Shown here: in pieces, positions 3,440 to 33,959 of the stretch
Layout: the number at the start of each line of letters is the position of its first letter
Position numbering within the stretch: the first letter of the stretch is position 1
NCBI GenBank assembly: GCA_903875055.1
Contig: CAIQUX010000114.1
Span: forward strand, 1 to 33,959
Reading direction: 5' to 3'
Source: an uncultured Bacteroidota bacterium
GTDB taxonomy: Bacteria > Bacteroidota > Bacteroidia > Chitinophagales > Chitinophagaceae
Length of the DNA stretch: 33,959 bases
Translations under genes and position numbers: made by a program
The notes under the pieces: model-generated
Seen by the model: the letters and a program-made list of their open reading frames with translations, nothing else
Database searches by the model: none
Told to the model about the DNA's origin: nothing

Positions 3440-3601
3440 TGAATGAATTTTAGGGGTTAAAGGTAGGAATTCAAATTCATACTGTTTATTATCGTTTCTT
3501 ATAGCGTATCTTATTGACACAAAAGGGCTGCTTTTTCTAGTGTTTGCAAACCTGATACATTTTGAGTTTTAAAAAGAATAAGGAAGTGATTAAACTTAAA
3601 T

Positions 3602-3609
3602 TACTTTTG
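3602..3609 (+). promoter_or_regulatory. Bacteroidota-type -7 element of the SET/ATP-grasp operon
   Basis: TACTTTTG matches the Bacteroidota -7 consensus TAnnTTTG exactly. It lies 27 nt before the ATG at 3637. It also argues against a TTG start at 3562, which would lie upstream of the promoter. I see no clear -33 TTG at the usual distance. Confidence 0.55.
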
Positions 3610-3636
3610 CGGTCAAAGCGCCCAAAATTAAATAGA

Positions 3637-4134
3637 ATGTCAATTATACCTAATGCTCAGCAAACCATTGCTGAGGAACAATCCGAACCTCTGTCTGAGG
3701 TTCGCACTGATGTCACTACAGGACACCGGTCATTATTTTCAAAGAAAGTATTTCACCCGGATGATGTCATCAGTCATTTTTACTGGGAAGAGGTCCGCAA
3801 CACGCCGACCTATCTGACAGTTCAGATTGGAGAAGACAGGCATGTGGAACTCCTGCCAACCTATTTGGAATGCGCCAATCATAGTTGCCACCCGAATGCT
3901 TTTTTCGATACGACCAAAAAACAACTGGTTTGTATACGACCCATTCAAGTGGCAGAAGAAATCACCTTTTTCTATCCCTCCGCAGAATGGGATATGGATC
4001 AACCCTTTGACTGTCACTGCAAAAGTGCCGAATGTATAGGACATATCGCCGGGGCTAAATATCTGTCACCAGATCAGACACAGCATTATAGGTTTACCGA
4101 TTTTATCAGACAAAAATTACATGCCTCTAACTAA
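3637..4134 (+). CDS. Stand-alone SET domain protein (putative lysine methyltransferase)
   Basis: 165 residues. The first 25 look unstructured. From about residue 26 there is a compact SET domain: an N-SET turn TGHRSLFSKKVF, the hallmark NHSCHPN at 81-87 that threads the SAM-binding pseudoknot, ITFFYP with the expected catalytic Tyr at 113, and a post-SET CHCKSAEC (C126, C128, C133) that would bind zinc together with a core cysteine. SET proteins methylate lysine side chains with SAM; no substrate is evident here. The Asp that usually precedes the Tyr (LxxDY) is replaced by Phe. It is the first gene of a four-gene operon: its TAA is directly followed by the ATG of the ligase gene. A related SET domain is fused to the third gene, so the pair may act on the same product or carrier. 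Confidence 0.85.
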   Translation: MSIIPNAQQTIAEEQSEPLSEVRTDVTTGHRSLFSKKVFHPDDVISHFYWEEVRNTPTYLTVQIGEDRHVELLPTYLECANHSCHPNAFFDTTKKQLVCIRPIQVAEEITFFYPSAEWDMDQPFDCHCKSAECIGHIAGAKYLSPDQTQHYRFTDFIRQKLHASN

Positions 4135-5226
4135 ATGGAATTTCCACAAAAAAAAGATCAATATAAGATCTGGGTGTTTGCCCCTTTTCTCGTAACTGAT
4201 GATCCGAATCTGCAATTTTATTATGATTATACTCAAAGTATAGAAGAATATAAACGTGTATTTGAGGTCTTAGACTGCGAATGGGAGTGGGTGAATATCA
4301 CCATGTCTAATTATGAAAATGAAATTGAGCGGGTTGAAAGAAATAAAGAGAAGAAAAATCTTGTCATTAACCTTTGCGACGGCGACGAAATCAATGAAGT
4401 GCCAGGTGTTTCAGTGATCCATGCTTTGACGAAACATCATCTGGCTTATACAGGTGCCGACTCCTATTTCTATGAAATCACTACCTCTAAGATTATCATG
4501 AAAAAGGCTTTCGATCTTTATCAAGTAAAAACTCCGGGCTGGATGATTTTAGATGAAATGCCTGATGAAAGCAAGCTGAAGGAAATAGGTGAACCAGCTA
4601 TTCTGAAGCCTGCCGTTTCGGCCGGAAGCATGGGGTTAAGCATAAAGAATGTGGTTAGTTCAGTAGAGGAATTGAAGGCAGTATTGCAAGACATTCAACA
4701 AGGCTATCATGGATGGCGACTTCATGAGTCAGGTCTTATCCTCGAACAATTCATTACAGGAAGGGAATTTACCACCTTTATTACGGGATCGACGACGAAC
4801 CCGGAAGAGATCAGATTCTATCAGCCGGCTGAACGTGTTTTTCATCAATCCTTACCCGACAAAGAACAATTTCTTTCCTTCGACCGGCTTTGGGAAACAT
4901 ATGACAATGAGAGTGCTATGCCTGGAGAGGACTTTTTTTATCAATATGCTGAGGTCGCTTCTTCTGAATTAGTTCTTGCCTTGAAAGACATAAGTCTTAA
5001 GGCGTTTCATGCAGTGAAAGGTATGGGTTACGCACGTCTCGATATACGGATGGATAAGGCGAGCGGTGAATTGTATGTACTCGAGATCAATGCGCAATGT
5101 GGTTTAAGTGAAGATGAAGACTATACCTCCATCGGTGCCATATTGCGTTTCAGTCATGTTACATTCGCACAATTGATTGCAGCGCTTTTGGAAGATGCCT
5201 TACGACGTCAAAAAAATACCGATTAG
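4135..5226 (+). CDS. ATP-grasp ligase, D-Ala-D-Ala-ligase-like
   Basis: 363 residues with the layout of D-alanine-D-alanine ligases: an N-terminal pre-ATP-grasp domain (about 10-110, with NLCDG at 79-83 and VIHAL, AYTGADS) and an ATP-grasp domain (about 115-350). Visible parts are the ATP-binding lysine K158 in ILKPAVSAGSMG, the flexible glycine-rich loop 163-167, LILEQFITGREF (E204, R210, E211) and the magnesium-binding GYARLD (D303) and LEINAQC (E317, N319). Such enzymes join a carboxylate, via acyl phosphate, to an amine. In true Ddl the last motif is followed by x-x-P-G; here it is x-x-C-G. Both that change and the context argue against a cell-wall role, so the substrate is probably different. 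It starts immediately after the SET gene stop and ends 3 nt before the next ligase gene. Confidence 0.88.
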   Translation: MEFPQKKDQYKIWVFAPFLVTDDPNLQFYYDYTQSIEEYKRVFEVLDCEWEWVNITMSNYENEIERVERNKEKKNLVINLCDGDEINEVPGVSVIHALTKHHLAYTGADSYFYEITTSKIIMKKAFDLYQVKTPGWMILDEMPDESKLKEIGEPAILKPAVSAGSMGLSIKNVVSSVEELKAVLQDIQQGYHGWRLHESGLILEQFITGREFTTFITGSTTNPEEIRFYQPAERVFHQSLPDKEQFLSFDRLWETYDNESAMPGEDFFYQYAEVASSELVLALKDISLKAFHAVKGMGYARLDIRMDKASGELYVLEINAQCGLSEDEDYTSIGAILRFSHVTFAQLIAALLEDALRRQKNTD

Positions 5227-5229
5227 ATT

Positions 5230-6657
5230 ATGAAAGTCTGTGTACTCCAACCTGATTATGTTACAACTGATGTGGATTATAGAAACTATGATCCGCCGCG
5301 CGACCTGTCATTATTGCTTCCGGATGATGAGGTGAAACATGTCTTCCTCAATAAGCTGACAACTTACAAACAACTGAAGGATCTTAGCATGCAACGTTTT
5401 GATATCTATGTCAATCTATGCGAGGGTTATTTGGATTGGTCCGTACCTTCCATCGATGTCATTCATTCACTTGACCGATTGAATTTGCCTTATACTGGTC
5501 CTGACGCCACCTTATATGATCCAACAAAAGTGTTGATGAAATACGTGGCCTATTGTGCCGGTATTAAAACGCCTGTTTTTATTGAATTTGATCAACAGAA
5601 AGAATTAGCTGCACAAGTAAAATCAATTGATTTTCCACTGTTTGTAAAACCAGCTAAAGCCGGTGACAGTCTGGGTGTGGATTCGCTTTCATTAGTCAAT
5701 AATGATTTCGAACTTGACTCGAAAATAAAATCATTACAAGCGGAAGGCTATCACGATATACTGATAGAGGAATATATAGCCGGACGCGAATTTACTGTGT
5801 TGGTGGCAGCAAACCCAGCTCCGGAGCAAGGGTGCACCGTTTTCAAACCGGTGGAATATGTATTCCCTTCATCGTATAAATTTAAAACCTATGCACTGAA
5901 GACGTCGGAATTACATACAGATGTAAATGTACCTTGCGACGATGAGGAACTGGAACAGCGACTTCGATCAGCTGCCGAAAAAATATTCAATACGTTTTCA
6001 GGTAAGGGGTATGCCCGTCTTGATTTCAGATTAAGCGCCGATCAGCATCTTTATTTTCTCGAGATCAATTTTACCTGTTCTGTTTTCTATGAACAAGGTT
6101 ATGAAGGCTCTGCCGATTATATTCTCCGCTATGATCCTATGGGTAAATCCGGATTTCTATCTCATATCATCGCCGAAGGTTTGGCCAGACACAAGGCAAA
6201 GCAGAAAAAGTATAGGGTGAAAGGCAACGCCATTATGGGCTATGGAATATTTGCTAATCAGTTGATACCGAAAGGGGATGTAATTTTCAAGATCGAAGAA
6301 AGTGCCCAACGTATCGTCACGAAACGACATATTCAAACTCACTGGACACCTGAACAACAAAAAGATTTCAGACACTATGCTTATCCCATTTCGGATGAAG
6401 TCTATATCCTTTGGGATGAGGATCCGCAACACTGGGCTCCGCAAAATCACAGTTGTGAACCGAATACGATTTATAATGGACTTAACCTGATTGCCTTACA
6501 GACAATTCATGAGGAAGAGGAGTTGACCCTTGATTACGCTTTATTGCTGGATGAATCCATCGGTACATTCGAATGTCATTGTGGTAGCAAACATTGCCGT
6601 AAATTGGTTGGTGGTACCTTAGGCAACTCGGTTTCAAGCAGAGAAAAGAAATTATGA
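5230..6657 (+). CDS. ATP-grasp ligase fused to a C-terminal SET domain
   Basis: 475 residues in two parts. Residues 1-320 are a Ddl-like ATP-grasp ligase: NLCEG at 62-66, IHSLDRLNLPYTGPDA, K140 in LFVKPAKAGDSLG, IEEYIAGREF (E180/E181, R186, E187), GYARLDF (D265) and LEINFTC (E278, N280). Residues about 328-463 are a SET domain: IMGYGIFANQLIPKG, NHSCEPN at 406-412, LTLDY with the catalytic Tyr at 436, and post-SET CHCGSKHC (C449, C451, C456). All catalytic signatures of both halves look intact. The fusion suggests one product or carrier is both ligated and lysine-methylated; this is inference. As in the previous gene, the residue at the Ddl proline position is cysteine. Its stop overlaps the start of the membrane gene (ATGA). 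Confidence 0.9.
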   Translation: MKVCVLQPDYVTTDVDYRNYDPPRDLSLLLPDDEVKHVFLNKLTTYKQLKDLSMQRFDIYVNLCEGYLDWSVPSIDVIHSLDRLNLPYTGPDATLYDPTKVLMKYVAYCAGIKTPVFIEFDQQKELAAQVKSIDFPLFVKPAKAGDSLGVDSLSLVNNDFELDSKIKSLQAEGYHDILIEEYIAGREFTVLVAANPAPEQGCTVFKPVEYVFPSSYKFKTYALKTSELHTDVNVPCDDEELEQRLRSAAEKIFNTFSGKGYARLDFRLSADQHLYFLEINFTCSVFYEQGYEGSADYILRYDPMGKSGFLSHIIAEGLARHKAKQKKYRVKGNAIMGYGIFANQLIPKGDVIFKIEESAQRIVTKRHIQTHWTPEQQKDFRHYAYPISDEVYILWDEDPQHWAPQNHSCEPNTIYNGLNLIALQTIHEEEELTLDYALLLDESIGTFECHCGSKHCRKLVGGTLGNSVSSREKKL

Positions 6658-7508
6658 AAGGTGCAGGTTATATAAAACAGATCATGAGTGAACACAAGCT
6701 AAAGCTTTTGGTTACCTATGTGCTCTTCACGCTTGAAATGAGTGGTGATCTCATGAAGCCATATTTTATTGGCAAAGCCGTTAATGATTTGCTCAAAGGT
6801 AGTTTTGAATCATTGATCATATTCATCGCGTTGCATTTGGGTTGGATGGCTATTGGCATGATACGGATGCGTTATGATGTGCGCACGTATACCAGCATTT
6901 ATAATGCCGTCATGCTCAAATTCCTGTCAGGTAAAACAATTAAGAGTGATATCTCAAAATTAAGTGCGCATTCGACACTCACACGTGAGCTTATCGATTT
7001 CCTGGAGTTTGATCTGGTGTATATACTGGAAGCCGTTTTTAATATTTTCGGTTCGCTGATCCTGCTTTTCTTTTACGATATCCATGTGGTGTTTGTCTGT
7101 ATGGCAATTCTTATTCCAATTTCGTTCATCAGCCGATGGTATAGCAAGCGGATGAGCAAACTGACCCATTTCAAGAATAATGAAATCGAGAAGCAAGTCG
7201 ATGCCATCAGTTCATTTGACAAGAAGGAAATTGAACGTCACTATTGGGCGCTTCGCAAATGGCATGTACGTATTGCCGATCAGCAAGCCTTCAATTTTGG
7301 CGTCATGGAGACCATCGTTGCATTGCTTATCGGACTGTCGCTTTATATTTCCACAAGACATTCGAATCTTTCTGTGAATGAGGGTGAACTAATTGGTATC
7401 TACTTCTACATCATTAAATTCAACAAAGGCCTTGAAACTATTCCGTATATACTTGAAAAATATGTGAGTCTGAAGGATATTGTAAGTCGCATCATCAGTT
7501 TTGAATGA
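6654..7508 (+). CDS. ABC transporter six-transmembrane domain protein lacking an ATPase
   Basis: 284 residues resembling the transmembrane half of type I ABC exporters and nothing else. Hydrophobic helices are visible at about 16-40, 55-72, 122-140, 143-163 and 222-240, with a last helix near 250-265, and the intracellular loop segments are typical. The chain ends after the helices (DIVSRIISFE), where an exporter would continue into its nucleotide-binding domain; no Walker A, signature or Walker B motif is present. No separate ATPase gene is in the window. It may use an ATPase encoded elsewhere, or act as a membrane anchor or non-ATP-driven carrier. Its 4-nt overlap with the ligase-SET gene ties it to that pathway, perhaps for export of the product. 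Confidence 0.8.
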   Translation: MKGAGYIKQIMSEHKLKLLVTYVLFTLEMSGDLMKPYFIGKAVNDLLKGSFESLIIFIALHLGWMAIGMIRMRYDVRTYTSIYNAVMLKFLSGKTIKSDISKLSAHSTLTRELIDFLEFDLVYILEAVFNIFGSLILLFFYDIHVVFVCMAILIPISFISRWYSKRMSKLTHFKNNEIEKQVDAISSFDKKEIERHYWALRKWHVRIADQQAFNFGVMETIVALLIGLSLYISTRHSNLSVNEGELIGIYFYIIKFNKGLETIPYILEKYVSLKDIVSRIISFE

Positions 7509-18150: not shown

Positions 18151-21144
18151 ATGAAATTTACAAAATTACTCCTGATGCTGATCACTATCCTGATTGCTGG
18201 ATCAGCCTACGCCCAATCACCTCTTGCCATTCCTTATCAGGCGGTTGCTCGAGATATAAGTGGGAATATTTTATCAAACCAAAATATTGCTTTACGCATC
18301 ACCCTGATCGATTCTAATATTAATTCAATTGATTACCAGGAAACGCATCAGTTGACTACGAACGCATTGGGTTTGTTTAGCTTGAACATCGGACAAGGCA
18401 CGCCAGTAATTGGTGCATTAGGTAATGTCTACTGGCCCCTCAGTGGCAATGAACATGTGCAGGTTGAAATGGATCCTGCCGGTGGAACCAATTATATCGA
18501 CATGGGTTTCACAAAATTAAACAGTGTGCCTTTTGCATTGCATGCCAATACATCAAGCGATAATCGTTGGGCAATAACAGGTAATAATATTTCTAATTCG
18601 AATGCAGGGAATGTTGGGATCGGCAATACAACCCCACAGCATCCGCTGAGTGTGGGTGATGCAAGTGCAGACGGGCAACCTGTTGCTGTGCGAGGATACA
18701 GCAATAATCAGCCATTCTGGAAAGGTGGTGCAGCCTTTGGTTATAATCAGTCAAGCGTGATCATGGGTGAACTCAGTGGTGTTGCCAGCATTGCTGGACA
18801 TGATGCGACACTGAGCGGGTGGAGTGATTTATCCATCAATACAGGCGGAGGCAAGGTGGGCATCGGAACAGCAACACCTGTTGCCCGACTTGATGTCAAT
18901 GGAGATGGAAAATTCGGACCCTATTTAAGAATTGGAACAGATGTATCCGAAGGATATTTCCAAAACTCGCAAGACGGTGCTTATCGTGCCCTGCAAACCG
19001 GCGGAGATCAGGGGTATTGGTTTCAGAATTATAATGGCGTAAATACGTCCATGTATGTTGGATTAAATGGCACGTATCAAAACCGTGTGGGAATCGGAAC
19101 GACCACTCCTGAAAATTCATTACACATATATAATCCTGGTAATGCAACCAGAGTAACGATCGGTGCCGGAGATTTAAACGGAGGTTCGACTAATTTGATA
19201 CTAGGAACTTCTTCTGCTGGAAATGGACAATCTGAAATTCAATCCATTTCCGCGGCTGGTTCATCATGGGGAAATCTATTGCTGAATAAGAACGGAGGAA
19301 ATGTGGGTATCGGTATTTTCAATCCGGATGCACCGTTACATTTGTCAGGCGCGATTCATCTGAACGCCAATAATTCTCAGGGTGGTGATGGAATTATTTT
19401 TGATGAAGCCCCTTATGCAGCGAATGGACATTGGGTTATGGATGCATACGCAGCAGGCTTCCCGGCAGCCAATAAATTAAGGACCTATAATGACCGAACC
19501 GGAATCACTGTTCAGACTATCATGGATAATGGAAATGTTGGTATTGGTGATTTCCAATATTGGGAAAGTGCACTTGCCAAATTAGATGTGAAGGGAAATG
19601 TAAAAATTACAGACGGAACAGAAGGTGCCGGAAAAGTGTTAACCTCAGATGCAAACGGCTATGCAAGCTGGACAACACCGAGTACAACCATCAGTGGTAA
19701 TGCCGGCGGTGATCTGACCGATACCTATCCGAATCCATCCCTCACCACCACTGGTGTTACCGCAGGTAACTATCCTAAAGTGACAGTCGATGCGAAAGGG
19801 AGAGTCACAAACGGAAGTGCATTATCTTCTTCTGACATTCCATCTCTATCTGGCTCATATGTTGATTTGACATCAGCTCAAACGGTTGCAGGTACGAAAA
19901 CATGGTCTGATAATGCCATCTATAATAATAAGATTGGAGTCAAGGCAAACAGTCCGGTTGGTGAATTAGATGTACGGTCAGATATATCCTCTGGTGAAGT
20001 AATGGATCAGTCCCAAGTAAATCACTGTTGCTCATCAGGACCTAATCATCAGTCCTTCACAGCCGGCATTTCCGGCGCACTCACTAAAATAGCATTGTAT
20101 TTATATTCTCCATTTGGGAATACTTCGACATCACCGGTTACCATTTCTATTCTAAGTGGGTCTGGTATTTCCGGGACTGTCTTAGCCACCGAAAATTCTG
20201 TCATTCAAGGTGTAATTAATGGAGCTGAGCAAGTCTATACATTCACAAATCCTGCGACGCTTGTTGCCGGTAATCAATATACCATTAAAATTTCTGTTCC
20301 TTCATCAATCTTTATTTTTATCGGAGGTTCTACAGGCAACTTATATCCTAACGGAACAAGTTTTTATTCAACAGGTTTATCAAACACAGGATGGGATTTA
20401 TATTTTAAAACATTTGTTACGCCACCTTCGAATATAGTACCTGCCATTGCAGTAACTGGTGGAAAAGTGGGTGTTGGAACGCTGACCCCTGCAGCTAAAC
20501 TCGATATTGCCGGCAATGTAAAAATTACCGACGGAACACAAGGCACCGGTAAAGTATTAACCTCAGATGCAAATGGTGCAGCCTCATGGGCATCGGTAAC
20601 CTCATTAGAAACAGATCCGAAAGTGGGAACACTCGCTGCCAATAAAGTTCCAAAATGGAATGGAACATCTTTGCAAGATGGTATTATCACAGACAATGGT
20701 GCGAATGTAGGCATTGGCACAACCACCCCGGGCAGCAAACTATCTGTTGCAGGCAATACCGATGTTACAGGTAATATAAGCGGTGGTGCCAATATCACCT
20801 CTCCGAAATTTAATGTAACCCAGGTCTGGAATGAGCATCCGAACCTTCCGGACACATCTAGTTTTGTTACCGGTGGTGGCACCGTTATGCTTTGCGTTTC
20901 TGGTATGGGATACCGAAGTACAGTTGGCATGATTGGATTCAATATTCTGATTGATAATGTCAATAGAGGTACGTGTAAATCATGGGCCAATGAGATTAAT
21001 AGTCAAAAAGTGATTAGCTCAAATTTCCTTGTCATTACCGGCCTGACACCGGGTACACATGCCATCAAACTAAGTGCGATTGCACCTACAGTGTTTGATC
21101 TGAATGACTATTTTAGTTTAAGTGTGCTCGAGCTGCCATTCTAA
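18151..21144 (+). CDS. Mosaic surface protein without S74 end
   Basis: 997 residues. Signal peptide 1-22 (ends GSAYAQ), then the shared N-terminal domain ([16 protein letters not shown] ... [10 protein letters not shown]). Blocks follow: about 160-245 is similar to residues 331-415 of the previous protein ([31 protein letters not shown]); 246-315 is the shared fibre module; two near-identical [19 protein letters not shown] segments lie about 430 codons... that is, at 19600-19660 and 20518-20577; an ordered beta domain at about 620-760 ([19 protein letters not shown]) resembles one in the 29599 protein. The end (about 884-997) is a cysteine-containing beta domain, not S74 and not a T9SS tail, so trimerisation and anchoring must differ or rely on its operon partner. 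Role inferred: surface fibre or adhesin. Confidence 0.8.
18886..19096 (+). repeat. Shared fibre module, copy 2
   Basis: Encodes [35 protein letters not shown] and [11 protein letters not shown]. It is the counterpart of 15146-15355 and 23526-23740. Here it follows the TPQHPLSVG block, while in copy 1 it precedes that block. Confidence 0.8.
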
Positions 21145-21206
21145 AGGTGAATGGAATCTAAGCTAATTCAGTTGAGTTGTTGAATCACGAATTATTTCTT
21201 GCTAAA

Positions 21207-21245
21207 CTCCTAATATTAGTATCATGAACTCCTAATATTAGGAGT
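21207..21245 (+). promoter_or_regulatory. Paired regulatory boxes upstream of the third surface-protein gene
   Basis: CTCCTAATATTAGTA (21207-21221) and ACTCCTAATATTAGGAGT (21228-21245), the latter a perfect 18-bp palindrome. Core centres are 22 bp apart, as at 14265-14302. The second core ends 26 nt before the -7 element at 21268. This box is probably closest to the ideal binding site. Confidence 0.75.
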
Positions 21246-21267
21246 AAGAATACCCGTTTAATTGTTC

Positions 21268-21275
21268 GATTTTTG
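21268..21275 (+). promoter_or_regulatory. -7 element of the third surface-protein gene
   Basis: GATTTTTG differs from TAnnTTTG only in the first base, 33 nt before the ATG at 21309, the same leader distance as at 14326. No -33 TTG is at the usual distance. Confidence 0.5.
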
Positions 21276-21308
21276 TTCTACTAAAACAAGCATAAAATCA
21301 TTTTTATC

Positions 21309-24300
21309 ATGAAAAAAAATAGCACACTTTTTATTATTGGATTATTGTCCCTTATGTCATTGGTCTTCTCGGCAGATGCTCAGGCACCACAGGGTATTCC
21401 CTATCAGGCTGTGGCACGGGACGCCGGTGGTAGTGTTATGAGCAATCAAAGCATAGCGATGAGGTTTAGTATTCACGATGTTACTGCTTCAGGAGCAACC
21501 ATCTATCAGGAAACGCAAAATGTCACAACCAATTCATTAGGCTTGTTTTCAGTCACACTCGGACAAGGAACTCCGGTCATCGGCTCGTTCCCCTCTGTGA
21601 GTTGGGGAGTCGGTGATAAATTCCTGCAGGTGGAGTTAGATCCTACAGGGGGCTCTTCCTTTACCGATATGGGAACTACACAACTCATGAGTGTCCCATA
21701 CGCCTTATATTCAGGTAATGGTGGTTTATGGGATAAGAATGGCAATGACATTTTTAATACGAATATTGGTAATGTCGGGATTGGTACCAATACCCCTTCA
21801 AAGAAACTCGATGTAACAGGTGATGCGTTGATTCACGGCATTACTGTCGGTGTCGGTACAGGTAATAATGGTTATAGCGCCGCCCTGGGTTATGAAGCCC
21901 TTAATGTGAATACATCAGGATATGCCAATACCGCCATCGGTTACCAGACCTTGCGCCAAAATACAATTGGACTTTTTAATACCGCCATCGGTGCGGCAAG
22001 TCTCACAGCCAACACCATTGGTAACTATAATGTGGGATTAGGTGTCAATAGTCTTTCGTCCAATACCACCGGTCATTACAATACAGGATTAGGAACCTAT
22101 TCAATGATGTTGAATACTACAGGTCAACAAAATACAGCTCTTGGCTTTAGTTCCCTTCAACAGAATACTACAGGTAGTTTCAATTCCGGATTAGGGTTGC
22201 AGACTCTATTTTTTAATACAACCGGTGAGCAAAATACCGCTGTAGGTCATAATGCTATGATAAACAATACAACCGGTATTAGAAATACTACAGTCGGGAT
22301 GAACTCCTTGCAAGCAAACACGAACGGCAATAATAATTCAGCCTTAGGACGAAGTGCTTTGTTTGCCAATACCACTGGTAATGCCAATACCAGTATAGGA
22401 GAACGCTCCATGCTTACTAATCAGACAGGATCGTATAATACAGCGGTCGGAGATTCTGCTGCACTGAGTTATAATGGTAATGCGATCACAGCTATCGGAT
22501 ACCAATCGTTGGCAAATACAACCAGCGGCAATCAGAATGTAGCTGTCGGTTATCAATCATTAGTCAATAATACCACAGGAGCTGGCAATACGGCTATTGG
22601 ATACCAGGCCTTGAATGGTAATGGCGATGGTGCCAATAATACTGTCATCGGTAAGAATGCCAATGTGGCTTCGCCAAGTCTAACGAATGCGACAGCCATC
22701 GGTGCGAATGCTTCTGTTGCCCAGTCGAACAGTATCGTATTGGGAAGTGTCAATGGAGTGAATGGTGCCACAAGTGATGTAAATATAGGTATCGGCACTT
22801 CTGCACCCACAGAGCAGTTACACACAACAGGTGGTGTTCGCCACGAAAGCCTGAGTGGAATAGGTGCAAGATTGGTGTATTCAGATGCAAATGGTAAATT
22901 GATCAATAGAGCTAATGATACGCTGGCAAGTTATTCGGCTACGCCTAATGTGTTTGTTCCTTCGGGATGTGCGGGAATCACAACAAGTTCTATCACCATT
23001 TCAGGTTACCCTTCCTCTGTGGCTTCCTCAACGATTACTGTTCGTTTAAATATAGCAACCACTTGGGATGGTGACGTCAGGGCTTATCTGATTGCTCCCA
23101 ATGGGAATGTATTAAATCTGTTGTATTTCAACGGAGGAGGAAGTTATAATTTTACGAATACTGTTTTGTCGGATACTGCAACTAACTTACTTTCATCAGC
23201 ATTCGGACCTTTTACTGGCAGTTTTAAACCGGCCGCTAATATGGGCACCTATTGTAGTTCCACATCCAATGTCAATTCATTTTCCGCCATCGGAGGTGGA
23301 AGTATCAACCCGAATGGAGTATGGAGCCTTGTGGTGTATGATGATATCGTATATGATGCAGTTACGCTGAATAATTGGTCCATCAATATCGTACCTCCTT
23401 CTACACTATCACCCTTGAATGGAACGAATAACTATTTGCCTAAATGGGCAAACGGCAATCTGAGCACAGCGAGCAGTGTATTTGATAATGGGACGAATGT
23501 CGGTGTGGGTAATTCATCGCCGGTGGCTAAACTGGATGTCAATGGTGATGGAAAATTTGGAGCCTATTTAAAAATAGGGACTGATGTAGCGGAAGGTTAT
23601 TTTCAAAATTCAATAGATGGTGCTTATCGGGCTTTGCAAACCGGTGGGACACAAGGATATTGGTTCCAAAATTATAATGGCGTAAGTACGTCGATGTATG
23701 TCGGGTTGAACGGCACGTATCAGGGTAAAGTTGGCATCGGAACTACCACACCGGCGGCTAAGTTAGACGTAGTTGGTTCAACAAAAACAGCAACACTTCA
23801 AATTACCAATGGTGCCAGTAATGGTGCTGTGCTTACTTCGGATGCCAATGGCAATGCATCATGGGTTGCTCCAACAGTCAATAATGTTGGTTGTGTCATT
23901 CGTGCTCAATCATTTACAGCCTCTGCGAGTGGAACAGGTTATGCTGCCGGAGGTGCATTTGCTCCAACGACCATTACAGCAACTGGCATTTATGGTGATA
24001 CACGTTTAATTAACTCTGGAGCGATGAACGTCACCACCGGAAGTGCTACGAATACTGGTTTATTTACCGCACCTTCAGATGGTTACTACGAAGTCAGTGT
24101 GAAAGCAATAAGTGTAGCAAGTAGTGTTAGACTAATTTTATTGGGCTCTCTGAATGGCGCTTCCCCTGTTGAAATACTTGATCAACTCACCAGTAATCCA
24201 TGTGCAAGTTGTTCTGATATAAGTCATACTCAAATCATGTATATGCAAGCTGGTGATACACATCGTATTCTTCGATCGCTTAGTGGTACTGCTATTAATG

Positions 24301-24329
24301 ACATGGTAATAAGTTATCGAAAACTTTAA
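21309..24329 (+). CDS. Mosaic surface protein with YadA-like beta-roll repeats and P-domain
   Basis: 1006 residues. Signal peptide 1-25 (ends FSADAQ), then the shared N-terminal domain to about 135. Residues about 190-477 are a run of 24-residue repeats of the form NTAxGxxSLxxNTTGxx, like the left-handed beta-roll of YadA-type trimeric adhesin heads. About 550-697 resembles a proprotein-convertase P-domain (TWDGDVRAYLIAPNGN ... NPNGVWSLVVYDD ... LNNWSINI). The shared fibre module is at about 740-811. The C-terminal 140 residues look like a C1q/TNF-like beta sandwich (GLFTAPSDGYYEVSVKA ... YMQAGDTHRIL), a fold that usually trimerises. No S74 end. It has its own promoter with paired boxes and is probably regulated with the 14367 operon. 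Confidence 0.85.
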   Translation: MKKNSTLFIIGLLSLMSLVFSADAQAPQGIPYQAVARDAGGSVMSNQSIAMRFSIHDVTASGATIYQETQNVTTNSLGLFSVTLGQGTPVIGSFPSVSWGVGDKFLQVELDPTGGSSFTDMGTTQLMSVPYALYSGNGGLWDKNGNDIFNTNIGNVGIGTNTPSKKLDVTGDALIHGITVGVGTGNNGYSAALGYEALNVNTSGYANTAIGYQTLRQNTIGLFNTAIGAASLTANTIGNYNVGLGVNSLSSNTTGHYNTGLGTYSMMLNTTGQQNTALGFSSLQQNTTGSFNSGLGLQTLFFNTTGEQNTAVGHNAMINNTTGIRNTTVGMNSLQANTNGNNNSALGRSALFANTTGNANTSIGERSMLTNQTGSYNTAVGDSAALSYNGNAITAIGYQSLANTTSGNQNVAVGYQSLVNNTTGAGNTAIGYQALNGNGDGANNTVIGKNANVASPSLTNATAIGANASVAQSNSIVLGSVNGVNGATSDVNIGIGTSAPTEQLHTTGGVRHESLSGIGARLVYSDANGKLINRANDTLASYSATPNVFVPSGCAGITTSSITISGYPSSVASSTITVRLNIATTWDGDVRAYLIAPNGNVLNLLYFNGGGSYNFTNTVLSDTATNLLSSAFGPFTGSFKPAANMGTYCSSTSNVNSFSAIGGGSINPNGVWSLVVYDDIVYDAVTLNNWSINIVPPSTLSPLNGTNNYLPKWANGNLSTASSVFDNGTNVGVGNSSPVAKLDVNGDGKFGAYLKIGTDVAEGYFQNSIDGAYRALQTGGTQGYWFQNYNGVSTSMYVGLNGTYQGKVGIGTTTPAAKLDVVGSTKTATLQITNGASNGAVLTSDANGNASWVAPTVNNVGCVIRAQSFTASASGTGYAAGGAFAPTTITATGIYGDTRLINSGAMNVTTGSATNTGLFTAPSDGYYEVSVKAISVASSVRLILLGSLNGASPVEILDQLTSNPCASCSDISHTQIMYMQAGDTHRILRSLSGTAINDMVISYRKL
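23526..23740 (+). repeat. Shared fibre module, copy 3
   Basis: Encodes [35 protein letters not shown] and [16 protein letters not shown]; homologous to 15146-15355 and 18886-19096. Confidence 0.8.
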
Positions 24330-24401
24330 ATACATAGCACACACTTCAAATAAAAAACATTACTCTAACCAAATCAACTTTTTAAAACTAATTACTTTGT
24401 C

Positions 24402-25196
24402 ATGAAAAAAGTACAATCAATTTCATATATGCTGGCATTCATTTCATGCCTTAGCGTAGTATCGTCACAAGCCCAATCACTAAGTCCGCGGGTCATAGCC
24501 AGCGCAGGTGGATACAGCAGTAATGGAGCAGGTTCTTTGTCCTTTACGATAGGAGAAGCCAATACAAAAACATTGACATCAGCCACACATACGCTCACAC
24601 AAGGTTTTCAGCAACCTTTCAAGATGACCCTGAATCTGAAAGCCTTCATACAAGGCTACTACACCAGTTCTGGCACTATGGAAAATGTATTATTCAACGA
24701 AGGTGTTACACCATTTTCTGGTAATGAATGTGATACGATAGTGGTGCAGTTACGTCAACCTACTTCACCATATCTGGTGGTTTCAGAAAGTCAATCGGTG
24801 ATTCAAACCAATGGACAACTGACATTTTCAGGCACCGCCCCGATCGGACAATCATATTATGTGGTATTGAAGCATCGCAATGCCGTAGAAACCTGGAGCG
24901 CTAATCCGGTATTGCTGAATGAAAATACATTGTATGATTTTTCATCAGCTGCCAACAAGGCATTCGGTGATAATATGGTAGAAGTCGAACCAGGTATATG
25001 GTCGTTGTATTCTGGTGATATTCAAAAAGATGAGAACGTCGACTTGCTGGATCTGGGAACACTTGAAAGTGACATCAGTAATTTTACGTATGGTTATTTT
25101 GCTACGGATATCAACGGAGATGGAAATGTAGATCTTCTCGATTCGCCTTTGCTGGAAGAGAATATCAACGCCTTTGTGTTTTCCTACCATCCATAA
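24402..25196 (+). CDS. Secreted protein with dockerin-like calcium-binding tail
   Basis: 264 residues. Signal peptide 1-25 (ends SSQAQ). Residues about 28-73 are the domain often found before T9SS tails (VIASAGGYSSNGAGSLSFTI ... LTQGFQQPF). Residues 77-182 form a module (FIQGYYTSSGTMENVLFNEG ... YYVVLKHRNAVETWSANP) that recurs at the end of the gene at 32046. The last 60 residues hold two dockerin/EF-hand-like loops, SGDIQKDENVDLLDLG and DINGDGNVDLLDSPL, expected to bind calcium and possibly a cohesin-like partner. There is no T9SS tail. It lies 72 nt after the P-domain surface protein and is followed by a good terminator. Function unknown; a surface or matrix component is a fair guess. Confidence 0.75.
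   Translation: MKKVQSISYMLAFISCLSVVSSQAQSLSPRVIASAGGYSSNGAGSLSFTIGEANTKTLTSATHTLTQGFQQPFKMTLNLKAFIQGYYTSSGTMENVLFNEGVTPFSGNECDTIVVQLRQPTSPYLVVSESQSVIQTNGQLTFSGTAPIGQSYYVVLKHRNAVETWSANPVLLNENTLYDFSSAANKAFGDNMVEVEPGIWSLYSGDIQKDENVDLLDLGTLESDISNFTYGYFATDINGDGNVDLLDSPLLEENINAFVFSYHP
24630..24947 (+). repeat. QGYY...KHRNA...TWSANP module, copy A
   Basis: Encodes a module of about 105 residues with QGYY, NEG, LR, SP, TNG, KHRNA, TWSANP and YDFSS at matching positions in copy B (33642-33956). The linkage of the two genes suggests a common surface function. Confidence 0.75.
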
Positions 25197-25499: not shown

Positions 25500-25526
25500 T
25501 TTGTTCAGGATATTCTCATTATATTG
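25500..25526 (+). promoter_or_regulatory. Tentative promoter of the LytS-type sensor gene
   Basis: TTTG at 25500-25503, then 16 nt, then TATATTG at 25520-25526, one T short of TAnnTTTG. If real it supports the ATG at 25549 rather than the TTG at 25501. No CTAATATTAG box is present. Confidence 0.3.
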
Positions 25527-25548
25527 TGCTGCAAGAGCTATAGTGTCT

Positions 25549-28500
25549 ATGTTTTCACCATCAAGTCTTAGGATCTATATAATAATTGGTGCGATATTTT
25601 TGAATGTCAACTTATCGGCACAAACCAGCTATCATATTACTGCCAGTCAAGGCTTAGCTACAAATCAGTTAACCGTTTTAATAAAAGGTCGCAATAATAC
25701 CATGTGGTTCGGAAGCTATAATGGGCTACACAAACATGAAGGCACTTACATACGCGTCTATAACAGAACCAATGGAGGAAACACTTCCCTGAGCAGCAGA
25801 GAAATCCATGCTGTGTTTGAAGATAAGCAAGGCTATATCTGGGTTGGTACGACAGGTGGTCTGGATAAACTGAATCCAACCACAAACTTTATTGAACACT
25901 ATCCGTTAAAATCAGCTAAGAGAAGTGATGATTATATCGGTTACATCATTTCCATTTTTCAGGATGATAAGGAAGATATCTGGGTTTGCACTGATGTAGG
26001 AATTTTTATTCTTAACTATCAAACAGGGGCGTATACTGAAGTTTTGGATAAAGAAAAATCTGGCAAGGGAATGCCCAGCGATTTTATGCTGTATAAATCT
26101 GCCATACGCACCAAGACTGGTTTGTGGATGTATACAACGGGTTATCTCGTGTATTATGAATTTAAATCCAAGCAGTTTTTCCATCAATTCAATAACCCGT
26201 TCCATAAACCCATTTTCAGTCTCTTGCAATCAGAAGGCGATAGCCCAAGAAGTGAAATGTGTATGGATAAGGACAGCAATCTGTTTTTCTTATTTAATCA
26301 TTCCACACTGGTACGTTACAATCTGCTGACAGAAAAAATTGACTCCTTTCATTTCGCCTTTCCGGCCAATGCCTGGAAATGCTGTTATTCTCTTGCAGCC
26401 GATTATAAGGGAAATATCTGGATTGGTTTCCGATACGGAGGTATTCTTTATTTTAATCAGGCAACTCAATCATTTACGTCGATTCGATATACAGATGAAA
26501 ATAGCCTTGTCAAATCAGATTATATCTATTCGATGTGCGAAGATTATCAACACAGAATGTGGGTAAGCACCAATAATGGAATGTTTGTAATAAACTATTA
26601 CGACAGCATTGTGAAACAAAAATACCTGAGCGATAAAAAAGAATTCATTAATCCAAATTATGAACCTGCTATTATTTCTGAAGACAAGAAGGGTCAATTG
26701 TATATTCCATTTCGAGCCGGAGGACTTTTTACTTACAATATCAACAACGAACAGATTCATTACTATCCGGTTAGGGATACCGCTGTCAGTGCATTCGGAT
26801 TCACGTTTGCCCAGTCGGAAGACCAATTACATATAGCAGCCAATCATACTCTTTTACTCGCGGACACTGTAAAAAGCAAACTGACTTTTATGAAGGATAA
26901 AAGCAAGCTGTTTACATTGATAGGAAAGCAACCCGGACAAGTGGCATGGGTGTATAAATATAGAGACAACAATGTTTACGTCAAAAAAACAGATGGCAAA
27001 ATATATTATTTCAATGGGGCAGATAGTCTTGAAACCATCATTGCTCAGGGGTTTTCAAAGCAAATGTGCGTTTCCTCAGATAGTCAGTTTCTGTATATCC
27101 TGAATTATGATTATGTACTTTATAGGAGAAATTTAGCCACTTTAAAAACGGATACATTTACTTTCAGAACTCAACTGCACGAAAAAGGTTTTGCGTACAA
27201 TACGCCATTAGATATCGCGGATGATGGATCCGGGAATATCTGGATGTGTTCACAAAACGGGCTCATCAAATTTAATCTTCAAAATAATACCACAGCAATT
27301 TATACCACGGCTGATGGCTTGCTACACGATTTTAGTTTTACCCTTTGTCTGGATTCGAAAAAACGGCTTTGGGTTGGAAACATGGGTGGGGTGAATGTGT
27401 ATAATAAAGCCAGCAACAACTTCATGAATGTGTATTCACAATCGCCGGATAGAATGAGTAATTATTTTGGAAGCAGTCTGCAAGCGAATAATGGACATCT
27501 GTATTTTCTGTTCGGAGGGCAACTAGTGAATATTAACCCGGATGCTTTTTTTGGACAAAAAAAAGAAGACCCCATTTTTCAGCTTGATGAAATACGTGTC
27601 AATGAAAAGCATTACAGCATGTCAGAATTGTCCCATTTATCTTATATGGAGAATAGATTGTATGTGCGGTTCGGCTTATTAGAATTTGCGAATCCTGAGA
27701 AAGTCAAGTATGCATACTGGTTAGAAGGTCATGATACATTATGGAGCCCGCTGGGCAATCGGACTGAATTAAATTTTAATGCATTGGCACCGAATGCGTA
27801 TACACTGCATATAAGGGCGAATGATATTTTCGGCAGAGAGGTTCGTAAGCAGATAGCAATACCTTTTACGATTCACCCACCGTTTTGGGAAACATGGTGG
27901 TTTTTGCTTTTTGTGATTGTACTTTTATTTGTTTCCGTTTGGATATTTATAAAATGGAGGGAGCGAAGTATCAAGTCAAAGGAAGAAATTAAAACGAAAT
28001 TGGAACAGCAGCGGGTCGCTCTGGCCAATATCAATACACAGCTGGCTGAAGCAACACTGGCAGGTTTGCGAAGTCAGATGAATCCGCATTTTATTTTCAA
28101 CGCGCTGAACTCCATCAAAAAATTTGTTGTCGCCAATGAAGCACTTTCGGCTGAAAAATATTTAAGCAAATTTTCAAAGCTGATACGCAGCATTTTAGAC
28201 AACAGCCAATCAGGAATTGTGACTATTGAAAAGGAAATTCAATTGCTGACTCTCTATCTCGATCTTGAACAGCTTAGATTTGGGCATCGGCTGAGTTATC
28301 AGATTGAAGTAGCGGATGACATTGCAATTCGGGATATAACCATACCTTCTATGCTGATTCAGCCTTTTGTTGAAAATGCAATTTTGCATGGCATCATGCA
28401 TAAGGAGTCAGGCGGTCAGGTCCTCATATCATTTAAAAATACAAAGGATGACATCAAAATAAGTATTGAAGATAATGGTGTGGGGAGAACCCAATCGAAT

Positions 28501-28689
28501 GAGTACAAGAGTGAATTTTCTGAACCTCATTTGTCTCTGGGTATTGAAGTTGCTTCTAAACGATTGAATGCCCTTTATGACGGAAGTGAATTTGCAAAAG
28601 GAATTCAAATCCTTGATTTAATAAATGAAGAGGGAGATGCATTAGGGACAAGAATTATTTTAAGTATTCCCAAAAAAGAAATTCAATGA
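25549..28689 (+). CDS. Propeller sensor with LytS-type histidine kinase domain
   Basis: 1046 residues from the ATG at 25549, which begins a signal peptide (LRIYIIIGAIFLNVNLSAQ); a TTG at 25501 would add 16 residues ahead of it. Propeller repeats fill about 30-690 (NNTMWFGSYNGLHKHEG, GYIWVGTTGGLDKLNP), then a Y_Y_Y domain, a transmembrane helix at about 783-802 and a coiled linker. The kinase is of the His_kinase (LytS/YehU) class, with H847 in RSQMNPHFIFNALNSIKKF, ATP-binding IQPFVENAILHGI and EDNGVGR. The stop overlaps the start of the LytTR regulator gene, so the two form one translationally coupled system. The class differs from the NarL-linked kinase at 11025 although the sensor halves look alike. 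Confidence 0.93.
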   Translation: MFSPSSLRIYIIIGAIFLNVNLSAQTSYHITASQGLATNQLTVLIKGRNNTMWFGSYNGLHKHEGTYIRVYNRTNGGNTSLSSREIHAVFEDKQGYIWVGTTGGLDKLNPTTNFIEHYPLKSAKRSDDYIGYIISIFQDDKEDIWVCTDVGIFILNYQTGAYTEVLDKEKSGKGMPSDFMLYKSAIRTKTGLWMYTTGYLVYYEFKSKQFFHQFNNPFHKPIFSLLQSEGDSPRSEMCMDKDSNLFFLFNHSTLVRYNLLTEKIDSFHFAFPANAWKCCYSLAADYKGNIWIGFRYGGILYFNQATQSFTSIRYTDENSLVKSDYIYSMCEDYQHRMWVSTNNGMFVINYYDSIVKQKYLSDKKEFINPNYEPAIISEDKKGQLYIPFRAGGLFTYNINNEQIHYYPVRDTAVSAFGFTFAQSEDQLHIAANHTLLLADTVKSKLTFMKDKSKLFTLIGKQPGQVAWVYKYRDNNVYVKKTDGKIYYFNGADSLETIIAQGFSKQMCVSSDSQFLYILNYDYVLYRRNLATLKTDTFTFRTQLHEKGFAYNTPLDIADDGSGNIWMCSQNGLIKFNLQNNTTAIYTTADGLLHDFSFTLCLDSKKRLWVGNMGGVNVYNKASNNFMNVYSQSPDRMSNYFGSSLQANNGHLYFLFGGQLVNINPDAFFGQKKEDPIFQLDEIRVNEKHYSMSELSHLSYMENRLYVRFGLLEFANPEKVKYAYWLEGHDTLWSPLGNRTELNFNALAPNAYTLHIRANDIFGREVRKQIAIPFTIHPPFWETWWFLLFVIVLLFVSVWIFIKWRERSIKSKEEIKTKLEQQRVALANINTQLAEATLAGLRSQMNPHFIFNALNSIKKFVVANEALSAEKYLSKFSKLIRSILDNSQSGIVTIEKEIQLLTLYLDLEQLRFGHRLSYQIEVADDIAIRDITIPSMLIQPFVENAILHGIMHKESGGQVLISFKNTKDDIKISIEDNGVGRTQSNEYKSEFSEPHLSLGIEVASKRLNALYDGSEFAKGIQILDLINEEGDALGTRIILSIPKKEIQ

Positions 28690-29432
28690 TACGCACCATT
28701 ATTATAGAAGATGAACCCATCAGCAGAGATCTGCTGACACTGATGCTCAAGAGACATGGGCAGGATATAGAACTCATCGACATCTGCGCTAACCCTGGCG
28801 TGGGCATGGAGAGTATATTCAGAAACAATCCTGAGTTAATTTTTCTGGATATTCAAATGCCCAAAATGAGTGGTTTTGATATGTTGAACAAACTTAAGCC
28901 ATTCAATTTTGAAGTGATCTTTACCACCGCCTTTGATCAGTATGCAATGAATGCCATTAAAATGAGTGCATTAGATTACTTATTAAAACCTATTGAACAG
29001 GAGGAGCTGACAGCTGCTATTCAAAAAGCAAAAGAACGATTAAAACAAAAAGATCCGCAACTGAATTATGAATTATTACTAAGTAATCTGAGTCAGAGGA
29101 GTCCATTAGATAAAACAATTGCCTTATCGACATCAGATGGAATCAGTTTGGTTAAGCTCATTAACATTATCAGAGTGGAAGCTCTAGGCCGTTATTCAAA
29201 ATTTTATTTGATTAACAATGAAATCATTTTAGTCTCAAGAACCTTGGGTGATTTTGAAGACTCATTGTCCACTAATCATTTTTTCCGGATTCATGATTCG
29301 TATCTGGTTAATCTGCATCATGTAAAGAAATATGCAAAAGGAGATGGTGGTACTGTTATACTTTCAGATAACACGGAGTTAGATGTGGCGCGTCGAAGAA
29401 AAGATGCATTTATTAAATTAATCTCCAAATAG
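28686..29432 (+). CDS. LytTR family response regulator
   Basis: 248 residues. Receiver domain about 1-120: acidic pair ED at 8-9, phosphorylation site D55 in LIFLDIQMPKMSG, FTTAFDQYA, and K101 in DYLLKPIEQEEL. The LytTR DNA-binding domain covers about 140-245 (IIRVEALGRYSKFYLINN, LGDFEDSL, FFRIHDSYLVNLHHVKKY). It works with the overlapping upstream LytS-type sensor. The next gene, a mosaic surface protein 166 nt downstream with its own -7 element, is a natural candidate target, but I did not recognise a LytTR binding site. Confidence 0.95.
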   Translation: MIRTIIIEDEPISRDLLTLMLKRHGQDIELIDICANPGVGMESIFRNNPELIFLDIQMPKMSGFDMLNKLKPFNFEVIFTTAFDQYAMNAIKMSALDYLLKPIEQEELTAAIQKAKERLKQKDPQLNYELLLSNLSQRSPLDKTIALSTSDGISLVKLINIIRVEALGRYSKFYLINNEIILVSRTLGDFEDSLSTNHFFRIHDSYLVNLHHVKKYAKGDGGTVILSDNTELDVARRRKDAFIKLISK

Positions 29433-32049: not shown

Positions 32050-33959
32050 AAAAAATATCCCTGATTGTATTCGTGTCGATATCCTTGTTTATTGTTCCTG
32101 TTCATAAGGTCAAAGCACAATCCTTCAATCCTACCTTAGCCACAATGCTTCAGGATACATTGACCTATTATAATTCAGCTATAGGAAATATAAAAGGCAT
32201 GACAGTGAGTGTGTTTCTGCCTGGACAAGGCATGTGGCAAAGCACCACCGGTGTTTCGTATGCCGGACATCCGATTACATCGGATATGAAGTTTGATATC
32301 GGCAGTAATACAAAATTATTTGTAGCAGCAGCCATGTTGAAATTGCAGGAACATAATATTCTTCATCTTGATGACCATCTCTATCAGTGGATTCCAACCT
32401 TTGCGAATATCAATCCAAACATAACCATCAGACAATTATTGAATCATACAAGCGGTGTCCCTGATGTGATTTTCAACCCGCCTTGGTTAGACACCGTTAA
32501 AAATAATCCCAATAGAGTGTTTACTCATAATGAAGTGCTCAGCTGGGTGACTACCTCTCTCTTTCCTGCTGGAACAAATTGGAGCTATTCCAATACCAAT
32601 TATGTGTTGGTGGATATGGTGGCTCAAAGTGCCACCGGAATGCCAATAGCCCAAATAATACGGGACAGTATTCTGAATCCTCTTAATATGGATAGTACAT
32701 TTTTCGATATTCACGAACCTGCTACCGGCACAGTGGCCCATCGATGGTGGAACGGTATCACCAGTCCGAGCCTCAGTGATTACAGTAATGTTTCCCGGGT
32801 AGGTTTAAATTCTGCCGTCATACCAGCCGGTGGAATATTTTCCACATCCTCTGAAATGGCGCAATGGTATAATGCTTTGTTTAATGGTCAAATATTAACA
32901 CCGGCATCGATGGTTCAACTTACTGCATTTGTTACGATATCTGGTAACAATGCGCAGCAATACGGATTAGGTTTATTCAGAGAAACTACGTTGGGAATAA
33001 CCTATTGGGGGCATGGAGGAGATACATGGGGTTATAAAAGCAAAATCATGTATGATTCCTGCAGCGGCTTGGTTGTATGCGGACTTTCAAACGCATACCC
33101 GTGTGGGATGACTTCCATTCCCTTCGTGCTTTATCGCGCAGTAAAAAGTCATGTGCCTGGTTGCGCCGGAATCATAACAGGATCATCAACGGTTTGCCAA
33201 GGACAAAATAACGTAACATACACAACCACAGGAATAACAAATGCAACAAGTTATATATGGACATTGCCAAATGGCGCTACTGGTTCTAGTTCTACAAACA
33301 GCATCACAGTCAATTACGGATCATCGGCTGCTTCGGGAAATCTTACAGTCAGGGGAAACAACAACTATGGTGTGGGGGCGGCATGTTCATTACCCGTTAC
33401 TGTGAATCTTTCTCCTACAATCACAATAAGCAGTACTTCAAATCCTATTTGCGCCGGATCAACCACCACATTGAATGCAACAGGTGCGTTAACGTATATG
33501 TGGCAACCGCTTGCAACATCCGGGTCTACCAAAATTGTTTCACCGAATGTGACCACCACGTATACCGTCACCGGCACTTCGTCAACTGGTTGTACTAACA
33601 CTGCCACTAAAATAATAACAGTCAATCCTTGTACATCAACCTTATATGTAAAACTATTTCTCCAAGGTTATTACGCAGGAACTGGCAACATGAATAGTGT
33701 TTTATTGAATGAAGGAATATCGGTGAATAGCAATAATACAGATTCAATTACCGTGGAGTTGAGAAATGCTAATTCACCTAACAATTTGGCAGCTACTTCA
33801 AAAACAGTCTTGAATACTAATGGTTTGGCAGTCTGTACTTTTCCTGTCATCAGTGGCAGTTACTATATCGTAGTCAAACACAGAAATGCACTTCAAACCT
33901 GGAGTGCAAATCCAATGACGATAGGAGCTGTTCCGGTATTTTATGATTTCAGTTCAGCA
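32046..33959 (+). CDS. Secreted serine beta-lactamase-family protein with PKD-like domains (partial)
   Basis: At least 638 residues; the frame is open to the window edge, so the C-terminus is missing. Signal peptide 1-25 (ends HKVKAQ). Residues about 30-370 are the class C beta-lactamase/DD-peptidase-like serine hydrolase fold: SNTK (S87, K90), YSN (Y181, N183) and HGG (323-325) are the three catalytic boxes. By family the activity could be a peptidase, esterase or beta-lactamase; the sequence does not decide. About 375-456 is a PKD-like domain (GSSTVCQGQNNVTYT), about 458-530 a second Ig/PKD-like domain (CAGSTTTLNATG), and 533 onward the QGYY/KHRNA module shared with the 24402 protein. By analogy a dockerin-like or T9SS tail may follow. 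The start overlaps the S74 protein's stop, so they are co-translated. Confidence 0.88.
   Translation, partial: MKKISLIVFVSISLFIVPVHKVKAQSFNPTLATMLQDTLTYYNSAIGNIKGMTVSVFLPGQGMWQSTTGVSYAGHPITSDMKFDIGSNTKLFVAAAMLKLQEHNILHLDDHLYQWIPTFANINPNITIRQLLNHTSGVPDVIFNPPWLDTVKNNPNRVFTHNEVLSWVTTSLFPAGTNWSYSNTNYVLVDMVAQSATGMPIAQIIRDSILNPLNMDSTFFDIHEPATGTVAHRWWNGITSPSLSDYSNVSRVGLNSAVIPAGGIFSTSSEMAQWYNALFNGQILTPASMVQLTAFVTISGNNAQQYGLGLFRETTLGITYWGHGGDTWGYKSKIMYDSCSGLVVCGLSNAYPCGMTSIPFVLYRAVKSHVPGCAGIITGSSTVCQGQNNVTYTTTGITNATSYIWTLPNGATGSSSTNSITVNYGSSAASGNLTVRGNNNYGVGAACSLPVTVNLSPTITISSTSNPICAGSTTTLNATGALTYMWQPLATSGSTKIVSPNVTTTYTVTGTSSTGCTNTATKIITVNPCTSTLYVKLFLQGYYAGTGNMNSVLLNEGISVNSNNTDSITVELRNANSPNNLAATSKTVLNTNGLAVCTFPVISGSYYIVVKHRNALQTWSANPMTIGAVPVFYDFSSA
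33642..33956 (+). repeat. QGYY...KHRNA...TWSANP module, copy B
   Basis: Encodes LFLQGYYAGTGNMNSVLLNEG, then LRNANSP, TNGL, YYIVVKHRNALQTWSANP and YDFSS, aligning with 24630-24947 without large gaps. Confidence 0.75.

Follow-up and report, generated by a model that had tools for sequence, protein, structure and literature searches.

Four consecutive genes in a 33,959-nt stretch of DNA from an uncultured bacterium of the family Chitinophagaceae (contig CAIQUX010000114.1 of assembly GCA_903875055.1; the whole stretch is called the window below) encode a small SET-domain protein (SET1), a stand-alone ATP-grasp ligase resembling D-Ala-D-Ala ligase (Ddl), which we call ATPG1, an ATP-grasp-SET fusion (FUS), and an ABC transporter membrane domain (ABCM). 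Our analysis supports a real and conserved operon whose genes form one functional unit: the genes are present, the usual ATP-grasp and SET residues are retained, and the set is co-inherited. On balance, we favor a dedicated small-molecule pathway in which the ligases would join amino-acid-like units, the SET domains would methylate, and a transporter, where present, would move the product. SET domains are known mainly as histone and protein methyltransferases. This system suggests a role for them in small-molecule chemistry beyond the enzyme BurB, which bears on the origin of the histone methyltransferases. Moreover, this is an isolated gene set, found in 59 of the 195 sampled genomes of the family, its enzymes should be open to expression and assay, and the tight co-inheritance of the membrane protein offers a handle on transport.

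The operon and its inheritance

The earlier note on this DNA had placed the four genes in the order SET1, ATPG1, FUS, and ABCM, with junctions of 0 nt, 3 nt, and a 4-nt overlap, and we confirmed this head-to-tail layout in the window (4134/4135, 5226/5230, and 6654-6657, respectively). The SET1 frame is open upstream as far as a TTG at 3562; its start is most likely the ATG at 3637, which gives a protein of 165 aa, as in most relatives. The GC content of the operon is 0.410 versus 0.406 for the window, and an origin as recent foreign DNA, of which this comparison gives no sign, was rejected.

Of 195 sampled genomes from the family of the window (f1), 59 carry FUS, with two copies cut by contig ends. 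The other 58 fusions are 55-64% identical to that of the window. Distribution is patchy, since the remaining two genomes of the window's genus gave no FUS match at 1e-10. Neighborhoods were compared over 60 loci, comprising the window, L035, and 58 others, with flanks of up to 7 kb in both directions (L035 lies outside the 195 genomes, and L034 was excluded as being on the same contig as L036). ATPG1 adjoins FUS in 59 of these loci, the single miss being a contig end, and the gap between them is at most 200 nt in 56 of the 59 (527, 1015, and 1708 nt in the others). SET1 lies near FUS in 52 of the 60 loci, in L077 downstream of ABCM. Five of the eight loci without a nearby SET1 belong to genomes that carry it elsewhere; in G190, it sits on a separate contig with a piece of ATPG1. 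In G139 and G156, the locus meets the contig start, and no SET1 was found in either genome. Across the 60 loci, no further gene cluster occupies a fixed place, the largest being found in 24 loci and spread from -6129 to +4641.

Genome-wide counts agree with this picture. SET1 (E<1e-60) and FUS occur together in 57 of the 195 genomes, FUS alone in 2, SET1 alone in 2, and neither in 134 (Fisher p 3e-44, a statistic that ignores relatedness). One of the two SET1-only genomes, G133, has SET1 with an ATPG1 that runs off the contig; the other, G135, has SET1 alone. ABCM was found in 26 of the 195 genomes, and all 26 are among the 61 with FUS or SET1 (Fisher p 8e-16, again without regard to relatedness), although it lies on another contig in G044 and G133. 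The link of the ABC gene to the core is, therefore, stronger than adjacency alone suggests. That the genes form one unit, as the earlier note proposed, is borne out by the partners standing beside FUS and by the co-occurrence of SET1 and FUS; conservation of the four-gene neighborhood held for ATPG1 and SET1 but not for ABCM, which adjoins the core in only 24 of the 60 loci.

Beyond the family, we examined a phylum-wide sample of 395 genomes and found the full-length fusion (E<1e-130) in 17: five in f1 (the window included), nine in a single genus of f18, and one each in f28, f24, and f54. The f28 genome (G399) has the fusion alone at one locus and a SET1-ATPG1 pair at another (L117 and L135), so that all three genes are kept. 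In the f18 genus (g148), SET1 is followed by the fusion, then by a full ABC exporter, and finally by a third small SET gene (L120). This exporter matches PF00664 and PF00005 and has homologues in L119, L121, and L124; L123 ends before the exporter position. SET1 is present in all nine f18 genomes, in one as a partial match. None of the fusion matches among plasmid and phage records (488 and 14, respectively) covers 80% of FUS. The 15 plasmid matches listed are all annotated as Ddl, Van, or other ATP-grasp proteins; 2 of the 14 phage matches are annotated (ddlB) and 12 are unannotated; and SET1 matched only 4 Streptomyces plasmids in these records. Two single cases were also recorded. The ATP-grasp-SET fusion of the f24 genome (G398, L118:3753-10717, minus strand) lies near a gamma-glutamyltranspeptidase, an FGase (N-formylglutamate amidohydrolase-like), and a MATCAP-like protein, and a SET gene of G445 (L148:4237-6520, minus strand) stands beside a gamma-glutamyltranspeptidase.

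The ligases and the SET domains

The earlier note had called both ligases Ddl-like, and both indeed score above the Pfam cut-off for PF07478 (24 bits; the cut-offs for PF00856, the SET domain, and PF13748 are 22.4 and 27 bits). They share the ATP-grasp fold of the D-Ala-D-Ala ligases and keep the typical residues (Lys, Glu, Arg-x-Asp, and Glu-x-Asn); in FUS, K140, E180, E187, R263, D265, E278, and N280 are invariant in 27 aligned sequences. In contrast, both fall far below the NCBIfam Ddl cut-offs, with best scores of 76 bits (cut-off 243) and 89.9 bits (cut-off 245.65), and one copy is fused to SET. A separate Ddl in the same genome passes its NCBIfam model (330.3 vs. 310). By these scores, neither operon ligase is the housekeeping Ddl. 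The P-G ... S-x-x-P motif that follows the E-x-N triad in Ddl has a role in binding the second D-Ala. It is absent from both operon ligases, where the second-substrate motif gives way to N-x-x-C and the replacing stretches are QCGLSEDE..TSIGAIL-like in ATPG1 and FTCSVFY..GYEGSAD-like in FUS; because this motif is replaced, the second substrate probably differs from that of Ddl. These differences also bear on a cell-wall explanation, in which the ligases would make an altered D-Ala-D-X dipeptide for peptidoglycan and the SET domains would methylate it. Both ligases do match PF07478 and Ddl structures, but the separate passing Ddl, the low scores, and the replaced motif leave this explanation with a slim chance.

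In an ATP-grasp tree, the ATPG1 and FUS ligases fall together on one side of a branch with 100/99 support, apart from other Ddl-like ligases. The tree carries a long-branch warning and contains one heavily truncated Ddl row (235 aa), and only the branch of the SET system was relied on. Eleven loci of the other Ddl-like ligases comprise eight tandem pairs and three singles, and a GNAT acetyltransferase and a KamA-family aminomutase adjoin all eight pairs and none of the singles. Like the operon, the tandem loci combine a pair of adjacent Ddl-like ligases with enzymes that tailor amino acids; unlike it, they have an aminomutase and an acetyltransferase in place of SET, and their ligases lie across the strongly supported branch. 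Judged from gene content, they are a second, separate case of Ddl-like ligase pairs with amino-acid tailoring, and by analogy, we counted them as suggestive of a small-molecule role for the operon. On their own account, the tandem loci look like a seemingly undescribed pathway to a beta-amino-acid peptide or osmolyte, and no published description of the arrangement was found in the literature searched. Two of the aminomutases were scored against NCBIfam; they pass the KamA-family cut-off and fail the lysine 2,3-aminomutase model, so that lysine as the substrate is only a guess. The LAM_C domain was found in none of the 195 f1 genomes at 1e-8.

Both SET domains of the window carry the NHSCxPN motif and the post-SET cysteines that the earlier note had read in them: NHSCHPN with C126, C128, and C133 in SET1 (numbered from the ATG at 3637) and NHSCEPN with C449, C451, and C456 in FUS, where the Pfam SET match covers residues 337-436. 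N81, H82, C84, P86, and the three cysteines are invariant in 25 aligned SET1 sequences, as are N406, H407, C409, N412, Y436, C449, C451, and C456 in 27 FUS sequences; the proline of the FUS motif varies among relatives. Thus, the hallmarks of SET lysine methyltransferases (NHSC..N, a central tyrosine, and the post-SET cysteines) are invariant or nearly so in both. A SET tree was weakly resolved and was not used. Two more SET genes lie elsewhere in the genome (contigs C250 and C162).

We compared a SET1 profile, built from 25 of the 52 orthologues, with solved structures. BurB (PDB 9l4t and 9l4v) came first at 8.3e-19 (positions 21-147 of 169), and the next match was a histone enzyme at 1.1e-8 (58-135). 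According to the available part of the BurB report (PMC12542666), the enzyme methylates free methionine and is inactive on MTHB and MMPA; His138 binds the adenine and Arg133 the ribose of S-adenosylmethionine (SAM), with His93 a further SAM contact; and the Y124A variant is nearly inactive, Y124F retains more than 60%, and Tyr124 is not described as catalytic by its authors. The same part of the report names no ATP-grasp partner in the BurB route, whereas SET1 sits in a ligase operon. Like SET1, BurB is a small stand-alone SET protein with the HSC motif, the central tyrosine, and the post-SET cysteines. The position of BurB His93 is histidine in all 52 SET1 sequences, and Tyr113, also present in all 52, aligns with Tyr124. 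The premise of the earlier note that SET domains methylate lysines is, therefore, too narrow, given that the closest solved relative of SET1 acts on free methionine.

Proposed pathway and competing explanations

In the proposed mechanism, SET1 would use SAM to methylate an amino acid or a comparable small amine or thioether. Both Ddl-like ligases would use ATP to activate carboxylates and couple these to amines, giving a dipeptide- or amide-like core; the fused SET would methylate either the building block or the product of ligation; and ABCM, or the full ABC exporter in another genus, would carry the product across the inner membrane. We infer a small-molecule rather than a protein substrate, the order of the steps, and export. 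A bolder version, which we put forward as tentative and rather doubtful, is that the SET domains are built into a peptide-ligase assembly, N- or S-methylating a basic or sulfur-containing amino acid both before and after ligation to yield an exported, permethylated betaine- or sulfonium-like dipeptide. If so, bacteria would use SET domains generally to tailor small molecules, and BurB would be one offshoot.

Several findings weigh against the small-molecule pathway. A motif scan of ABCM found neither Walker A nor LSGG, and the nucleotide-binding domain of an ABC exporter, lacking in the window's ABCM, is present (PF00005) in the f18 locus L120; adjacency of ABCM to the core is limited, as described above. 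ATPG1 is absent from all 11 fusion genomes outside f1 and f28 (the nine f18 genomes, G398 of f24, and G523 of f54), judged with an ATPG1 profile at 1e-10 that matched only each genome's own fusion; the positive controls G004 and G399 showed ATPG1 at 1e-155 or better. SET1 is missing at 1e-12 from G398 and G523, two of these 11. The best solved relatives of the fused SET are MLL1 (5.8e-9) and BurB (5.3e-8), giving no clear preference between a protein and a small-molecule enzyme at the level of sequence. The position of BurB His138 is histidine in only 4 of the 52 SET1 sequences, the window among them, and that of Arg133 is arginine in 1 and glutamine in 46, including the window. AlphaFold2 predictions from a three-row alignment reached predicted local distance difference test (pLDDT) scores of only 34 and 40. 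Finally, of 50 loci, 2 have TAnnTTTG in the 120 nt that precede SET1, and the shuffled mean is higher, at 5.1. The exact -7 element on which the earlier note had built is present in the window (TACTTTTG at 3602-3609, upstream of SET1) but shows no clear excess, with 43 matches in the window versus 34.2 expected and 10 shuffles reaching 43, and it is not conserved in relatives. A promoter role for it was rejected on both grounds.

The gene sets of f28, f18, f24, and f54 indicate that what stays constant from family to family is the fusion, usually accompanied by SET1, and that ATPG1 and the type of transporter vary. This variation argues for a modular pathway rather than a rigidly fixed one; where ATPG1 is lacking, a single ligase has to do the work, and the product may be simpler. 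The earlier note had named a fusion found mostly without its partners as grounds for abandoning its proposal. Within f1, the partners stay with the fusion; outside f1 and f28, the changed partner set goes partway toward that outcome. Transport of the product by ABCM or by the f18 exporter is pointed to by two features of gene content, namely, that ABCM is found with core genes in 26 of 26 genomes and that a complete exporter follows the f18 fusion. The statement that the system moves its product across the membrane is conjectural as first made, for a protein that has no ATPase motif and is often not beside the core. Nor did the six-helix description of its membrane domain stand: a hydropathy scan gave about four distinct peaks, and six can be presumed only from the family.

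The small-molecule pathway has to be weighed against protein modification, in which the ligases would extend a protein with amino acids, in the manner of TTL-family enzymes and RimK, and the SET domains would methylate its lysines. The MLL1 match of the fused SET fits this idea, MLL-type SET domains being methyltransferases of protein lysines, as does TTLL12, the only published protein with SET-like and ATP-grasp (TTL) parts that we found. However, these are Ddl-type ligases, and such enzymes join amino acids; SET1 is nearest to a small-molecule enzyme; and the system has a membrane gene linked to it. No recurrent, fixed neighbor offers a substrate protein in sight, the genome elsewhere not having been searched for one. 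In the available part of its report (PMC3520985), the eukaryotic TTLL12 has its SET-like part at 91-249 and its TTL-like part at 353-642, has lost critical residues, and shows no methyltransferase or tyrosination activity in vitro; FUS, like it, combines the two kinds of domain in one protein but has the ATP-grasp part first and SET last, with the residues kept. We consider protein modification unlikely, and the suggestion of the earlier note that the system tags a protein found nothing in its favor, with no recurrent candidate substrate beside the operon.

A narrower form of the small-molecule pathway would have SET1 make S-methylmethionine, which the ligases would conjugate, as such or as a derivative, into a sulfonium peptide or osmolyte. 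The similarity of SET1 to BurB and the alignment of its invariant Tyr113 with BurB Tyr124 speak for it. The SAM-holding His138 and Arg133 described in the available part of PMC12542666 are so rarely matched that we did not file SET1 as a methionine methyltransferase, and SET1 has an FFYPSxEW motif of its own; this variant is, hence, decidedly improbable. The chance is very small for graspetide-like maturation of a ribosomal precursor peptide. Although ATP-grasp ligases define graspetides, as stated in the part of PMC8939145 available, those of the operon are Ddl-like, and the window holds no precursor open reading frame (ORF): in the 116-nt gap upstream of the operon, there is no ORF of 20 aa or more except SET1's own extension, and the gap downstream, likewise in the window, is 59 nt.

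Two further candidates were rejected. Anti-phage defense found no match: none of the four proteins hit a PADLOC family at 0.01. Polyamine conjugates were dismissed with S-adenosylmethionine (AdoMet) decarboxylase present in 12 of the 195 f1 genomes, of which only G023 also has the fusion. In G390 (L147:6465-8318, minus strand), a SET domain is joined to AdoMet decarboxylase and spermidine synthase in a triple fusion (SET-SpeD-SpeE); a second SET protein (L147, 4989-6440) adjoins it, and its C-terminal part is ATP-grasp-like by eye, with no Pfam match. This arrangement had prompted the polyamine idea.

The searches made returned no matching characterized pathway, in agreement with the earlier note, which knew of none with this gene set. 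No description of a SET plus ATP-grasp gene set was found in the literature searched, which left most subscription papers outside, and a 2009 amidoligase survey might predict it. As far as gene content allows a comparison, there is precedent both for ATP-grasp amide pathways and for a small-molecule SET enzyme, and the fusion and its co-inheritance appear not to be described in what we found. The available part of a review of bacterial SET proteins (PMC3980110) does not contain the words operon, ATP, neighbor, or Bacteroid-, and the part of PMC4431377 available names no methyltransferase.

Feature coordinates and neighboring genes

Table 1. Features of the operon in the window and the related tandem ligase loci
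Feature	Position	Strand	Basis
TAnnTTTG (-7 element), exact match upstream of SET1	3602..3609	+	Weak: not kept in relatives (2/50)
SET1, 165 aa, BurB-like SET-domain protein	3637..4134	+	PF00856 26.9 bits; orthologue profile finds BurB at 8.3e-19
ATPG1, 363 aa, stand-alone Ddl-like ATP-grasp ligase	4135..5226	+	PF07478 53.6 bits; NCBIfam Ddl 76 bits, cut-off 243
FUS, 475 aa, ATP-grasp-SET fusion	5230..6657	+	PF07478 82.3 bits; PF00856 42.9 bits
FUS, N-terminal pre-ATP-grasp and ATP-grasp part (residues ~1-322, limits approximate)	5230..6195	+	Conserved residues
FUS, C-terminal SET and post-SET part (residues ~333-462, limits approximate)	6226..6615	+	Conserved residues
ABCM, 284 aa, ABC_membrane_3, membrane domain only	6654..7508	+	PF13748 134.4 bits; no ATPase motif
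Tandem ATP-grasp loci with GNAT and KamA, other genomes of the phylum	L127, L129-L134, L136 (~3.2-8.7 kb in each)		

Elsewhere in the window, proteins of 997, 1006, 264, and 816 aa encoded at 18151-25196 and 29599-32049 have no Pfam match at 1e-10. A sensor histidine kinase with a Reg_prop propeller, followed with a 4-nt overlap by a LytTR response regulator, occupies 25501-29432. A Beta-lactamase-family (PF00144) protein with a PKD-like domain lies at 32046-33959 on the plus strand and is cut by the window end.

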